Source of the DNA: Blastococcus sp. CT_GayMR16
GTDB taxonomy: Bacteria > Actinomycetota > Actinomycetes > Mycobacteriales > Geodermatophilaceae
Length of the DNA: 64,000 nt
NCBI RefSeq assembly: GCF_004570875.1
Contig: NZ_SPQK01000004.1
Span: 1-64,000 of the forward strand
Reading direction: 5' to 3'
The notes under the pieces were generated by a model. The model searched no databases and had not been told where the DNA came from. It saw nothing but the letters and a program-made list of their open reading frames with translations. The position numbers and the translations under genes were made by a program. Shown piece after piece: positions 54,887 to 61,488 of this stretch (position 1 is its first letter; every line of letters begins with the position of its first letter).

Positions 54887-55524
54887 GTGACAACGGCCCC
54901 CGTCGCGAGCAGCACCTTCGACACATCGCGGGTGCACTCCTTGACCCGACCGAACATGGTCAGCGTCGGCACGATCATCTGGCTCTCCAGCGAGCTGATG
55001 TTCTTCGCCGGCCTGTTCGCCATGTACTTCACCGCGCGAGCGCGGGCCACCGAAGGGTGGCCGCCGGAGCCGACCGAGCTGAACATCCCGTACGCGGTCG
55101 TCTTCACGCTGATCCTGATCGCCTCGTCCGTGACCTGCCAGTTCGGCGTCTTCGCAGCGGAACAGGGCAACGTCTACGGACTGCGGCGCTGGTTCACGAT
55201 CACCTTCGTGATGGGCCTGGCCTTCGTCCTCGGCCAGGCGAAGCCTTCGTCCTCGGCCAGGCGAACGAGTACCGCGTCCTCGTCACCGAGCACGGCACGA
55301 CGATCTCGTCGTCGACCTACGGCTCGGTCTTCTACCTGACCACCGGGTTCCACGCGCTGCACGTGATCGGCGGCCTCGTCGCCTTCGTCTACCTGCTCAT
55401 CAGATCCACGATGGGCCGGTTCACACCGGCCCAGGCAACCTCGGCCATCGTGGTCTCCTACTACTGGCACTTCGTCGACGTCGTGTGGGTCGGGCTCTTC
55501 GCCACGATCTACCTGATCCGCTAG
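54887..55524 (+). pseudogene. ctaE: Cytochrome c oxidase subunit III, frameshifted by a 23-bp tandem duplication
   Basis: Codons from GTG 54887 give a subunit III start ([39 protein letters not shown]) to GLAFVLGQA, then shift out of frame at 55220-55265; the correct sequence resumes in another frame as [21 protein letters not shown] and ends [27 protein letters not shown] at 55524. The cause is a perfect 23-bp tandem duplication. Removing one copy restores a complete 204-residue protein. As read, the product ends at 55339 (about 150 residues) and lacks the last membrane helices. Subunit III normally is needed for a stable aa3 oxidase. Confidence 0.85.
55220..55265 (+). repeat. Perfect 23-bp tandem duplication in ctaE
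   Basis: The unit at 55220-55242 (GCCTTCGTCC...AGGCGAA) is repeated exactly at 55243-55265. 23 is not a multiple of 3, so the frame is lost. Both flanks differ directly outside, so the copies are exactly two. Confidence 0.95.
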
Positions 55525-55531
55525 GGAACCG

Positions 55532-56383
55532 GTGTCCACCACGAACCCGCAGTCCGAGGCCACCCCCGACGAGGGTGGCTCCATCGCCGGTGCCCCGGCG
55601 CGCCGGGCCCGCGTCCGCCGCCGGTCCAAGCACCGCCGTCGCCTCGCGAACGTCGCCGGCCTCATGACCGCTCTCGTGCTGACCGGCGCCCTGTACTCGG
55701 TGTTCGCACCGGCACAGGCCGCCGACGACACCACGGAGTCCGCCGCCGAGGCCGCCGGCCGCGAGCTGTACCAGCGCAGCTGCATCACCTGCCACGGGGC
55801 CAACCTCGAGGGCGTGCCCAACCGCGGCCCGTCGCTGATCGGCGTCGGCGAGGCATCGGTCTACTTCCAGGTGCACACCGGCCGCATGCCGCTGGTCCGC
55901 CAGGAGGCCGACGCGCAGCGCAAGCCCGCCGTCTTCTCCGACGAGGAGATCGACCAGCTGATGGCCTACGTGCAGGCCAACGGCGGCGGTCCGACGCTCC
56001 CCTCCGGCGACCTGCGGGACGGCGACCTGGCCGAGGGCGGCGAGCTGTTCCGCCTCAACTGCGCGTCCTGCCACAACTTCGTCGGCGAGGGCGGCGCGCT
56101 GAGCTCCGGCAAGGCCGCACCGAGCCTGCAGGACGCCAACGACCTCGAGATCTACACCGCGATGCTCACGGGCCCGGAGAACATGCCGGTCTTCGGTGAC
56201 AACCAGCTCACCACCGACGAGAAGCGCGCGATCATCAACTACGTCCAGACCATCAAGCAGCAGGCGGACCCGGGCGGTGCCGGGATCGGCCGCATCGGCC
56301 CGGTGAGCGAGGGTCTGGTCATCTGGGTCGTCGGCATCGGCGCCCTGCTGTTCGGCATCTTCTGGATGGGGAGCAAGGCGTGA
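55532..56383 (+). CDS. qcrC: Cytochrome bc1 complex diheme cytochrome c subunit
   Basis: The 283-residue protein has an N-terminal membrane helix (LMTALVLTGALYSVFAPAQAA), two c-type heme motifs CITCH (near residue 86) and CASCH (near 177) with their Met ligand segments (GRMPLV; ENMPVF), and a C-terminal membrane anchor (GLVIWVVGIGALLFGIFWM). The diheme subunit replaces a soluble cytochrome c in the actinobacterial bc1-aa3 supercomplex. GTG 55532; 7 nt after ctaE. Confidence 0.95.
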   Translation: MSTTNPQSEATPDEGGSIAGAPARRARVRRRSKHRRRLANVAGLMTALVLTGALYSVFAPAQAADDTTESAAEAAGRELYQRSCITCHGANLEGVPNRGPSLIGVGEASVYFQVHTGRMPLVRQEADAQRKPAVFSDEEIDQLMAYVQANGGGPTLPSGDLRDGDLAEGGELFRLNCASCHNFVGEGGALSSGKAAPSLQDANDLEIYTAMLTGPENMPVFGDNQLTTDEKRAIINYVQTIKQQADPGGAGIGRIGPVSEGLVIWVVGIGALLFGIFWMGSKA

Positions 56384-56456: not shown

Positions 56457-57569
56457 GTGAGTACGCGCGACACCCGCCCTGGCTCGACCGGCGGCGCGGA
56501 CGTCCCCGGTCCGCTCTACGGCGGCCCGGACGACGACTACACCCCCGAGCAGCTGGCGGCGATGAGCCGCGAGGACCTCGACCGGCTGGGTGCCCACTAC
56601 GACGGCGTGGAGATCCTGCACGTCGACCCGGGCCCCGCTCCTGGCTCGACGATGGAGAAGCGGGCGGTCCGCCAGGTCGGCCTCGTCTTCGCCCTCGCCG
56701 GCGTCTTCGCGTTCCTCTTCGTGGTCGTCTACGTCGGCTCGGGCTGGTTCCTCCCCGACTGGCACTGGCAGATCACCGAGAACGGGTGGAGTGCCCTCTT
56801 CACCCCGCTGCTGGGTCTGACCATGGGTCTCGCGATGGGCCTGGTCGGTATCGGGCTGGTGCTCTTCACGAAGAAGCTGCTGCCCCACGAGACCGCGGTG
56901 CAGGACAAGCACGACGGCTCGCACTTCGACCGGGTCACGGCCGGCGCGACGCTGGTCGGCGGCTTCCACAACAGTGGGCTGGCCCGCCGCAAGCTGATCA
57001 CCCGGTCCCTCGGCTTCATGGCCGCCGGGCTCGGGCTGATGCTGATCATGCCGCTCGGTGGCCTGATCAAGAACCCGAACAAGGGCAACCCGCTGGGCAC
57101 GACCGAATGGGCCAAGGGCGTGCGCCTCGTCCGCAACGACGGCACCCCGATCCGCCCCGGTGACCAGCAGCCCGGCTCGCTGGAGACCGTCTTCCCGGCG
57201 GTCCCCGGCGGCAACCGGCAGGCCGACGCCGCCACGATGCTCATCCGGCTGCGCCCGGAGCAAGTCGAGTCGCTGACGCCGCGTCAGGGCCAGGCCGACT
57301 TCGCGTTCGGCGAGTACGTGGCCTACTCCAAGATCTGCACCCACGCCGGCTGCCCGGTGTCGCTGTACGAGCAGGAGACCAGCCGCATCCTGTGCCCCTG
57401 CCACCAGTCGCAGTTCGACGTCACACAGGGCGCCAAGCCGGTCTTCGGCCCGGCCACACGGCCGCTCCCGCAGCTGCCTCTCGAACTCGACGACGAGGGC
57501 TACTTCGTCGCCAGCAGTGACTACATTGAGGCCGTAGGCCCTACCTATTGGAACCGGGAGCGCATCTGA
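56457..57569 (+). CDS. qcrA: Cytochrome bc1 complex Rieske iron-sulfur subunit
   Basis: The 370-residue protein has a cytoplasmic N-terminus, three membrane helices ([68 protein letters not shown]) and the 2Fe-2S domain with CTHAGC (CTHxGC) and CPCHQS. Three helices instead of one are usual for actinobacteria. GTG 56457 has GGAGGAAGC upstream. Its TGA overlaps the qcrB ATG (TGATG). Confidence 0.95.
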
Positions 57570-59236
57570 TGGCCGCTCGGACCGCCACCGCACCGGGAAC
57601 CCCGACCACCAAGCTGGGCAAGACCGCCTACGAGCTCGACGACCGGATCATCGTCGCTCCGTGGCTCCGCCGGACGCTGAACAAGGTCTACCCCGACCAC
57701 TGGTCGTTCCTGCTCGGGGAGATCGCGCTCTACTCGTTCATCATCCTGCTGCTGTCGGGCACCTACCTGACCTTCTTCTTCGACGCGTCGATGCGCGAGG
57801 TCGTCTACAACGGCTCGTACGCACCGCTGCGCGGGGTCGAGATGTCGGCCGCGTACGACTCGGCGCTGGCGCTGTCCTTCGACGTCCGCGGCGGCCTCTT
57901 CATGCGGCAGCTGCACCACTGGGCCGCGCTGCTGTTCGTCGCGTCGATCGTCGTGCACCTGCTGCGCATCTTCTTCACCGGCGCCTTCCGCCGCCCGCGG
58001 GAGACCAACTGGATCATCGGCGTCGTCATGCTGGTCCTCGCCCTGCTCATGGGCGTCACCGGCTACTCGCTGCCGGACGACCTGCTGTCGGGCACGGGCC
58101 TGCGCATCATCAGCGCGATCCTGCTGTCGGTCCCGGTGATCGGGACGTGGGCGCACTTCGCCGTCTTCAACGGTGACTTCGTCGGCGAGCAGATCATCGG
58201 GCGCTTCTACATCGTCCACGTCCTGCTGATCCCGGCGATCCTGCTGGCGCTGATCGGGCTGCACCTGCTGATCCTGGTGAAGCAGAAGCACACCCAGTTC
58301 CCGGGCGCCGGCCGCACCGAGCACAACGTCGTCGGCAACCGGCTCTTCCCGACCTTCGCTGCCAAGGCCACGGGCCTGGTCTTCGTGGTCTTCGGGGTGT
58401 GTGCGCTGCTCGGTGGCCTCGTGCAGATCAACCCGATCTGGCTGTGGGGTCCGTACAACCCGGCGCAGGTGTCCTCGGCGTCCCAGCCGGACTGGTACAT
58501 CGGGTTCCTCGACGGCTCGACCCGTCTGTTCCCGCCGTGGGACATCAACCTGCCCGGCGACTACACGATCCCGGCGCTCTTCTGGCCGACGGTCGTCATC
58601 GCCGGCGCCATGTTCACGGTCCTGGCGCTCTACCCGATCATCGAGCGCAAGCTCACCGGCGACACCGCCTCGCACCACCTGCTGCAGCGTCCCCGGGACG
58701 TCCCGGTCCGGACGTCGCTCGGTGCGATGGCCCTGGCGTTCTACGTGTGGCTGTGGATGTCGGGCGGCAACGACGTCATCGCCGACAAGTTCGACATCAG
58801 CCTGAACGCGATGACGTGGGTGGGCCGCATCGGCATCGTCGTGGTGCCGCCGGTCGTGTACCTGCTCACCTACCGCATCTGCCTGGGTCTGCAGCAGCAC
58901 GACCGCGAGGTGCTCGAGCACGGCATCGAGACCGGCGTCATCCGGCGGCTCCCGAGCGGTGAGTTCATCGAGGTCCACCAGCCCCTGGGCCCGGTCGACT
59001 CGCACGGTCATGGCACGCTCGCCTACGGCGGTGCGCCGGTGCCCAAGCGGATGAACCACATCGGCGGTGCCCGTCGGGCCATCCGCGGGTTCTTCAAGCC
59101 GGTCGAGGAGCCCTCGCAGGTCGAGATCGAGCAGCGCGGCGAGGGCCGTGGTCTGGCGCCCGGCGAGAGCGACCGCGAGCTCACGTCGTCCGGACGTCCG
59201 GTCGACGGTGGCCGGCCGCAGGAGCCGCGCGACTGA
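57569..59236 (+). CDS. qcrB: Cytochrome bc1 complex cytochrome b subunit
   Basis: The 555-residue protein has about nine membrane helices. Heme b ligands are the His pairs in [25 protein letters not shown] and [12 protein letters not shown]...[10 protein letters not shown]...LIGLHLL. QEDWY-like [11 protein letters not shown] (the Qo motif PEWY counterpart is PDWY) is present. The long C-terminal tail is polar. It is the quinol-oxidising subunit of the complex and the known target of drugs such as Q203 in mycobacteria. ATG 57569. An 18-bp-stem terminator follows. Confidence 0.95.
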
Positions 59237-59524: not shown

Positions 59525-59929
59525 TCAGCTCTGGGTGGCGTTCTGCCCCACGTAGTACTCGAAGAGCAGGCCGCCGATCGTGATGAGCAGCGCGACACCG
59601 GCGATGACGATGAACCACGAGTACCAGAACGCGAGCGCGAGGCCCATCATCGCGGCGGAGAGCGCCAGGGCGAAGGGCCAGTAGCTGCCGGGGCTGAAGA
59701 AGCCCAGCTCGCCGGCGCCGTCGGCGATCTCGGCGTCCTTCCGGTCCTCGGGGCGCGCGTCGATGCGCCGGGAGACGAACCAGAAGAAGCCGCCGATCAG
59801 GCCGGTGAGGCCGGCGGAGAGCACCAGGGCCGTCGTCCCGACGGGCTCGCGGGCCCACAGGCCGTAGACAACGGCGGCCGCAACGCAGAAGACCGCGATG
59901 ATGCCGAAAATGAGCGACTCGACCTTCAC
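59525..59929 (-). CDS. ctaF: Cytochrome c oxidase subunit 4, actinobacterial type
   Basis: The 134-residue protein has four helices in two pairs (SLIFGIIAVFCVAAAVVYGLW; TTALVLSAGLTGLIGGFFWFV; WPFALALSAAMMGLALAFWYSWFIVIAGVALLITIGGLL) and the family stretch FFSPGSYWPFALALSAA. It belongs to the aa3 oxidase found only in actinobacteria. GTG 59929 has AGGAGGCG upstream. Lies 51 nt after ctaC on the same strand (Rv2199c-Rv2200c order). Confidence 0.92.
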   Translation of the reverse strand: MKVESLIFGIIAVFCVAAAVVYGLWAREPVGTTALVLSAGLTGLIGGFFWFVSRRIDARPEDRKDAEIADGAGELGFFSPGSYWPFALALSAAMMGLALAFWYSWFIVIAGVALLITIGGLLFEYYVGQNATQS

Positions 59930-59980: not shown

Positions 59981-60865
59981 TCAGCCACCGCTGGACTGCT
60001 GGTCGACGTTGCCGTTCTGCAGCGACTCGAACGGCGTGGTCGCCGTCGACTGCCCGGGCTGGCCGATCTCCTCGAGCGCCTCGGACGTGGACATCCCCGA
60101 CTGGCGGGCGTCCAGGTAGGCGTCGTAGTCGTCGCCGGACACCGCGCGGACCTCGAAGTTCATGAACGCGTGGTAGGTGCCGCACAGCTCGGCGCAGCGG
60201 CCGACGTAGGCGCCCTCCTCCTGGACGGTCACCTCGAACACGTTGTTGCGGCCGTTCTCGTTGCCCGGGATGACGTCGAGCTTGAAGAGGAACTCCGGCA
60301 CCCAGAACGAGTGGATGACGTCGGCGGAGGCGACCTCGAACCGGATCGTCCGGTCGGTGGGCAGGACCAGGATCGGGATCTCGGAGCTGTTGCCGATGGT
60401 GCTGACCGGCTCGCCGTCCTCACCGGTGGTCTCCGGGTAGACGAACTGCCAGTTCCACTTGAAGGCGTTGACCGCGATCGTCTCGTCGGGCTCGTCGCTG
60501 AGCTTCTGCACCCGGTCCTGGACCACGACGGTGAAGAAGAACAGGCCGGCGATGATCAGGAACGGCACGATCGTGTAGACGATCTCGAGCGGCAGGTTGT
60601 ACGCCGTCTGCTTGGGCAGCTCGTCCGAGCGCTTCCGGTGGCGGACCACCGACCAGAGGATCAGACCCCAGACGCCGACACCGACGATGAGCGCGGCGAT
60701 GACCGATCCGGTCCACAGCTCGCGCATGTCCTGGGACTGCTCGGTGATGCCGTCCGGCCAGCCGAACCGCCAGAATTCGTTGTTCGGCATGTCGCATCCG
60801 GTGAGGGTCAGAACCCCCAGGAGACCGAGCGCGGCCAGCCGCGCGAGCCTGCTGCCTCGAGCCAC
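59981..60865 (-). CDS. ctaC: Cytochrome c oxidase subunit II
   Basis: The 294-residue lipoprotein starts VARGSRLARLAALGLLGVLTLTGC, where TLTGC is a lipobox, so Cys is acylated. Two membrane helices follow (SVIAALIVGVGVWGLILWSVV; IVYTIVPFLIIAGLFFFTVVV) and then the CuA domain with HSFWVPEF and CAELCGTYHAFM (two Cys, His, Met). It takes electrons from the bc1 diheme subunit. GTG 60865 has GAGGAGG upstream. Subunit I (ctaD) is not in the window. Confidence 0.95.
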   Translation of the reverse strand: MARGSRLARLAALGLLGVLTLTGCDMPNNEFWRFGWPDGITEQSQDMRELWTGSVIAALIVGVGVWGLILWSVVRHRKRSDELPKQTAYNLPLEIVYTIVPFLIIAGLFFFTVVVQDRVQKLSDEPDETIAVNAFKWNWQFVYPETTGEDGEPVSTIGNSSEIPILVLPTDRTIRFEVASADVIHSFWVPEFLFKLDVIPGNENGRNNVFEVTVQEEGAYVGRCAELCGTYHAFMNFEVRAVSGDDYDAYLDARQSGMSTSEALEEIGQPGQSTATTPFESLQNGNVDQQSSGG

Positions 60866-61119
60866 TGCTCGCTGCCTCCTCGTCCTCCGTCCGGAGCTCC
60901 GGACGGTCCTCCCAGCGGGTCGTCCACCGGTCCCCGGCGGACGGCATTCCCGCCGATTCCAGTGTGGGGCGAGACTAGCCGACTCCGCTCGGCGGCTGAC
61001 CACCGGAGACGCCGCACCGGCGGGTCGCGTGCAGGCCCAGGCCTCGCGGCGGCCGGACCGCCCGGACGCGGGCCCCACACGCGGCCGGGCGCCGTCGTCC
61101 GGCGGTTAGAGTCCAGTGC

Positions 61120-61488
61120 GTGTTCTCCCGGCTGCTGACCCCGAAGTGGCTGCTGTTGCACGTACTCGTGGCGGCCCTCTTCGTGGCGACCTTCTTCCTG
61201 GGCTACTGGCAGCTGACCAAGGCCGAGGCCGGCGGCGGCGCCGTCAACTGGAGCTACGCGCTGCAGTGGCCGCTGTACGGCTTCATGGGGCTGTGGTTCT
61301 ACCTGCGCATGGTCCGGATCGAACTGCACCGGGATCCGGACGACGGCGCACCGGGACGGGACGTCGTCCTCTACCAGCGCCCGCGCATCGACACGACAGG
61401 AGACCCCGAGCTGGCCGCGTACAACGCCTACCTCGCCGAACTCAACGAGCGCGCGCTCGGCCAGCGGAGCAGCCCCCATGGCCGCTGA
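61120..61488 (+). CDS. Small membrane protein, unknown function
   Basis: This 122-residue protein has two N-terminal membrane helices (WLLLHVLVAALFVATFFLGYWQL; ALQWPLYGFMGLWFYLRMV) and then a soluble tail with YQRPRIDTTGDPELAAYNAYLAELNER. The pattern is common in actinobacteria beside the DUF3817 and oxidase genes. GTG 61120 has TAGAGT 7 nt upstream (leaderless). It overlaps the next gene by 11 bp. A role in oxidase assembly could be imagined from the place, but nothing in the sequence shows it. Confidence 0.78.
   Translation: MFSRLLTPKWLLLHVLVAALFVATFFLGYWQLTKAEAGGGAVNWSYALQWPLYGFMGLWFYLRMVRIELHRDPDDGAPGRDVVLYQRPRIDTTGDPELAAYNAYLAELNERALGQRSSPHGR

Follow-up and report, generated by a model that had tools for sequence, protein, structure and literature searches.

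CtaE belongs to the actinobacterial bcc-aa3 supercomplex, of which structures have been deposited (PDB 6adq, 6hwh, 7q21). In Mycobacterium smegmatis the equivalent of oxidase subunit III is formed by CtaE and CtaF together, and these mediate the contact with complex III, as described in one report (PMC8361435); the same report states that many oxidases lose activity during turnover when subunit III is missing. Deletion mutants of M. tuberculosis lacking ctaE-qcrCAB are viable and grow more slowly, and silencing of ctaE-qcrCAB halts growth once cytochrome bd has been deleted (PMC6823465). Tandem duplications that disrupt a gene are described for the capsule genes of pneumococci. Sequence duplications within these genes are reported to cause phase variation (Waite 2001, 2003), and acapsular serotype 8 strains are said to have lost the capsule via a tandem duplication within wchA (PMC4022640).

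Here we describe an exact tandem duplication of 23 bp in the ctaE gene of an environmental actinobacterium. The likeness to the pneumococcal capsule genes (type 3 locus, cap8E/wchA and tts) lies in the inactivation of an open reading frame by a short tandem duplication; the capsule genes are reported to vary in phase, whereas ctaE is a respiratory gene for which one state was seen, and seen once. The likeness to the viable M. tuberculosis mutants lies in the loss of ctaE with cydAB present, a situation in which growth via cytochrome bd is to be expected (PMC6823465). Those mutants are laboratory deletions of ctaE together with qcrCAB, whereas here ctaE is the one gene affected, by a frameshift that arose spontaneously. 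We consider it likely that ctaE was inactivated by a real frameshifting tandem duplication that occurred very recently, either in the strain that was sequenced or in its immediate lineage, and that the cell respires through cytochrome bd.

The ctaE gene and its surroundings

The assembly (4.52 Mb in 47 contigs) is 99.99% complete and 0.44% contaminated, and the closest named relatives belong to the Geodermatophilaceae. The window, that is, the whole stretch of DNA analysed, comprises the first 64 kb of contig 42; the features discussed are collected in Table 1. The full extent of ctaE is from a GTG at 54887 to the natural stop at 55522–55524. Inside the gene the 23-bp unit GCCTTCGTCCTCGGCCAGGCGAA occurs twice in tandem, with zero differences between the copies. 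The frame from the start codon yields a product of 150 residues, of which residues 17–109 match COX3 (PF00510, profile 68–177), and the remaining match to this profile (170–255) is in a different frame, so that no single open frame spans the COX3 region and the last 86 residues of CtaE are out of frame. Both pieces exceed the Pfam cut-off, and with qcrC, qcrA and qcrB downstream the gene is identified as subunit III by homology and by position. It is otherwise intact, and each half aligned at 91–94% with the frames of two relatives.

Table 1. Positions in the window of the ctaE duplication and of the neighbouring respiratory genes
Feature	Position	Strand	Remarks
Broken ctaE, from GTG start	54887..55339	+	118 native and 32 foreign residues; stop at 55337-55339
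8-bp perfect inverted repeat, 9-nt spacer	55215..55239	+	spans left edge of the unit; possible duplication helper
First copy of 23-bp unit	55220..55242	+	identical to second copy; 23-nt gap in 40/40 aligned relatives
Second copy of 23-bp unit	55243..55265	+	identical to first copy; from tandem-repeat listing and alignment of relatives
Out-of-frame ctaE remainder	55246..55524	+	two hydrophobic segments, natural stop; COX3 profile 170-255, E 4e-16
qcrC (cytochrome c)	55532..56383	+	cytochrome c domains, two stretches
qcrA (Rieske)	56457..57569	+	QcrA_N and Rieske matches
qcrB (cytochrome b)	57548..59236	+	cytochrome b matches
ctaF (oxidase subunit IV)	59525..59929	-	PF12270, E 3.2e-51
ctaC (oxidase subunit II)	59981..61078	-	COX2 and COX2_TM matches

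The CtaE protein of an intact relative from the same genus (L006), which matches chain G of 6adq over its full length (E 1e-93), has five hydrophobic regions. The break maps to residue 119, past the third of these, and this is where the frame departs from that of CtaE in the bcc-aa3 supercomplex. The five neighbouring genes qcrC, qcrA, qcrB, ctaF and ctaC are all open, each with a family match. The start of qcrC lies 7 nt beyond the natural stop of ctaE and 192 nt beyond the premature one. Further along the window, a frame of 122 aa at 61120–61488 (+ strand), between ctaC and a DUF3817 gene, had no Pfam match at E 0.001.

Comparison with relatives

The ctaE loci of relatives were compared at 109 places, 29 taken from relatives and the best 80 among the matches listed; judged by length, five contigs occur in both sets, so that at most 104 loci are distinct. 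All 109 carried one copy of the unit and one frame. The gap between the two query pieces was 26 nt in the window versus 3 nt in each of these loci, which corresponds to 23 additional nucleotides in the window. Counted from the position aligned with the start in the window, CtaE of the relatives is 199–206 aa long (203 in 67 and 204 in 33 of the 109). In an alignment of 40 relatives (L004–L024 and L033–L051, three being duplicates), every sequence had a gap of 23 nt opposite the duplication, and the bases of the unit varied from relative to relative. The preliminary description of this DNA had given an exact duplication at these positions as the cause of a broken ctaE, an ordinary length of 204 residues with one copy removed, and intact qcrCAB, ctaC and ctaF. 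The duplication, the break and the open neighbouring genes were borne out, and the length of 204 residues fits that of the relatives. It had also proposed a comparison with the ctaE of relatives, in which shared copies with a working frame would have spoken against a break, and none of the relatives shared both copies. Two records, titled Bacillus sp. AZ43 (unverified) (L034) and Bifidobacterium breve MAG (L078), have a first part of ctaE that is 94% and 72% identical, respectively; these titles look wrong, or the bins are mixed.

A COX3 match was found in 103 of 112 Geodermatophilaceae genomes, a set with one genome per species. Among these 103, the genome studied here was alone in having the COX3 match at ctaE divided between two frames; the best match of every other genome, 102 in all, spans profile positions 68–78 to 255 without a stop, and some genomes hold additional partial or diverged matches. 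A duplication that is a trait of the genus or the family was rejected on these counts (single copy in 109/109 loci, one split in 103 genomes), and ctaE showed no recurrence of the split in the 103 matching genomes out of the 112 searched. Eight of the nine genomes lacking a match are 67–82% complete. The ninth (G094) is 98% complete and holds no COX3 match at all; the aa3 branch may have been lost naturally there, or the assembly may have a gap.

The gene would still work if the ribosome shifted frame at the duplication, or if a separately made C-terminal half assembled with the rest. The two frames overlap free of stops from 55057 to 55336, and the subunit III equivalent of M. smegmatis already consists of two proteins (PMC8361435), both of which agree with such a gene. 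Against it, the overlap lacks a strict −1 slippery heptamer; between 55057 and 55330 the C-terminal frame offers a single ATG, GTG or TTG, the GTG at 55057, which precedes the first copy by 163 nt; and the split arrangement was present in none of the 109 related loci. Programmed −1 frameshifting and internal restart were rejected for want of a strict slippery heptamer and of a suitable start codon, and we regard a gene that still functions as scarcely credible.

The tandem array and its possible origin

The array in ctaE has the highest Tandem Repeats Finder score in the window (92, with 100% match), the next of the 91 rows scoring 86. Exact arrays with periods of 10–300 were sought in the window, in 248 kb elsewhere in the genome, in 260 kb of two genomes of the same genus and in 117 kb of named loci. 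This yielded 23 rows, some of them overlapping, and the array in ctaE was the only one with a period of at least 13 that is not divisible by three. Forty first-order Markov windows (periods 10–100) contained 23 exact arrays with periods of 10–12 and none above 12. A similar duplication was not seen elsewhere in the 312 kb of the 4.52-Mb genome covered by the exact-array scan, and a general excess of tandem duplications in the assembly was rejected within that same portion. Exact arrays with units that are a multiple of three (12, 15 and 30 bp) occur in the same genome at L121:10039–10088, L125:16811–16879, L131:17362–17430 and L132:1551–1603.

At the edges of the unit, base 55219 does not match the unit's final base, nor does base 55266 match its initial one, and the junction therefore has no microhomology. 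The same mismatches led us to reject slippage between perfect repeats on either side; the closest imperfect copy has a spacing of 18. As the origin, a template switch at a small hairpin formed by the 8-bp inverted repeat would fit. The DNA fold of 55195–55285 is modestly stabler than that of shuffled sequences (z = −2.0; 7 of 200 were as good). Three other perfect inverted repeats of 8–9 bp lie within the same 651 bases, and for that reason little weight is put on the hairpin as the cause. A staggered break, filled in and joined by Ku, would fit as well; a Ku gene is present in the genome.

Assembly artefact or mutation

The second copy could have been introduced into the consensus by the assembly or the library, the genome itself having one copy. 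The other genes of the aa3 branch are open, as would be seen in that case, and each species is represented in the set by one genome. The whole array of 46 bp is short relative to ordinary read lengths, and this argues against such an error, as do the absence of similar duplications from 312 kb of the genome and the figures for completeness and contamination given above.

Further frameshifts were sought by comparing 906 open frames from two genomes of the same genus, namely all stop-to-stop frames of at least 150 codons, with the window and sampled stretches. Hits of at least 100 residues and at least 65% identity were obtained for 297 query-target pairs, 219 in the window and 78 in the three neighbouring stretches L121–L123. 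There were 24 split rows, and the only two that were coding-like on both pieces were at ctaE, the second having the same coordinates as the first. Coding-like here means that the G+C content is highest at the third codon position and lowest at the second, a rough filter, and 22 of the 24 rows were sorted together. Most split rows are shadow frames, because the queries were all stop-to-stop open frames. The split row of L143_57, a near twin of L138_40, was tested separately, and its first piece was not coding-like. No further frameshift was seen in the part compared (the window and L121–L123, a small share of the genome), which also counts against an artefact. We infer that the duplication is a real mutation and not an assembly error, and judge an artefact unlikely.

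Age and possible reversibility of the break

In a frameshifted gene the part after the break would be the first to decay. Comparison of the window with ten of the 40 relatives gave dN/dS values of 0.03–0.16 after the break (84 codons) and 0.02–0.22 before it (111 codons), each a weak test. In four control pairs of intact relatives the values were 0.00–0.13 before and 0.11–0.30 after the position of the break. The upper range of the part upstream of the break was somewhat above that of the four control pairs, and the downstream part was constrained no less than in intact genes, the 84 codons being few. With low dN/dS in both halves, the break looks young. An old pseudogene was rejected, relaxed selection after the break being absent at 0.03–0.16 over 84 codons; if ctaE is a pseudogene, it is a very young one.

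The preliminary description had offered three options: a very recent mutation, a slippage switch that turns the aa3 branch on and off, and an assembly or library artefact. Judged from the sequence, the first is best supported, since the gene shows no decay after the break and the split is unique among the genomes compared; the switch lost ground, as the break does not recur and the unit is not conserved. A switch would mean that the duplication is often gained and lost, with the aa3 branch going off and on in the population much as in the capsule genes of pneumococci. A perfect tandem repeat that breaks the frame of a gene in an otherwise preserved operon would suit it, as would the phase variation reported for those genes (Waite 2001, 2003). 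The array has just two copies and the relatives have no such tract, the other 102 genomes of the family with a COX3 match are each unbroken, and the unit's bases show no conservation among the 40 aligned relatives; taken with this, a switch is improbable.

In the capsule genes the extra copy is reportedly lost again. Copies can be lost from perfect tandem repeats, and in ctaE such a loss could in principle undo the mutation. There is no positive support for an evolved switch beyond this general property of perfect tandem repeats. More improbable still is the specific case of a reversible bcc-aa3 switch that happened to be off in the strain sequenced, in which the 23-bp duplication comes and goes at an appreciable rate and some cells live on bd alone, perhaps as a hedge against desiccation or low oxygen. 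The break is most likely an ordinary knock-out mutation in one strain.

Proposed consequences for respiration

For an ordinary knock-out mutation the following course is proposed. The 23-bp duplication shifts the frame, which then encodes the protein of 150 residues. As this product stops short of everything beyond the third hydrophobic segment, subunit III would lose its CtaE part, and the aa3 enzyme, if it behaves like other oxidases, may be unstable, inactive or short-lived. Termination 192 nt ahead of qcrC may, by polarity, also lower the expression of qcrCAB. With aa3 inactive or short-lived, respiration would be carried by cytochrome bd, whose assembly requires cydD and cydC, as the comparison with the mycobacterial mutants suggests. 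A ctaE mutation of this kind was unreported in the titles and abstract openings searched, the subscription literature being mostly outside their scope. If real, the break amounts to a naturally occurring null mutation of an aa3 oxidase subunit, in an actinobacterium from the environment, with which it could be tested how far cytochrome bd carries such a cell. It would also caution that the genome deposited for a strain may be that of a respiratory mutant.

The preliminary description had named cytochrome bd or a second ctaE as the oxidase to fall back on. A profile search of the genome did not find a second COX3 gene in the assembly, and such a gene was dropped as a possible substitute. The prediction for bd held: cydA and cydB are both full length, with the whole profiles covered, and they overlap each other on contig 45, cydB lying near the contig end. 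The interpretation given in that description is, overall, partly supported. Two full-length COX1 matches are also present in the genome. A cydA-like gene in another genome of the same genus (G008:C55:55539–56797, − strand) matches PF01654 in two abutting pieces (2–157 and 157–415) with differing open-frame lengths. It looks like another frameshifted gene for a terminal oxidase; the same genome also has a full-length PF01654 match.
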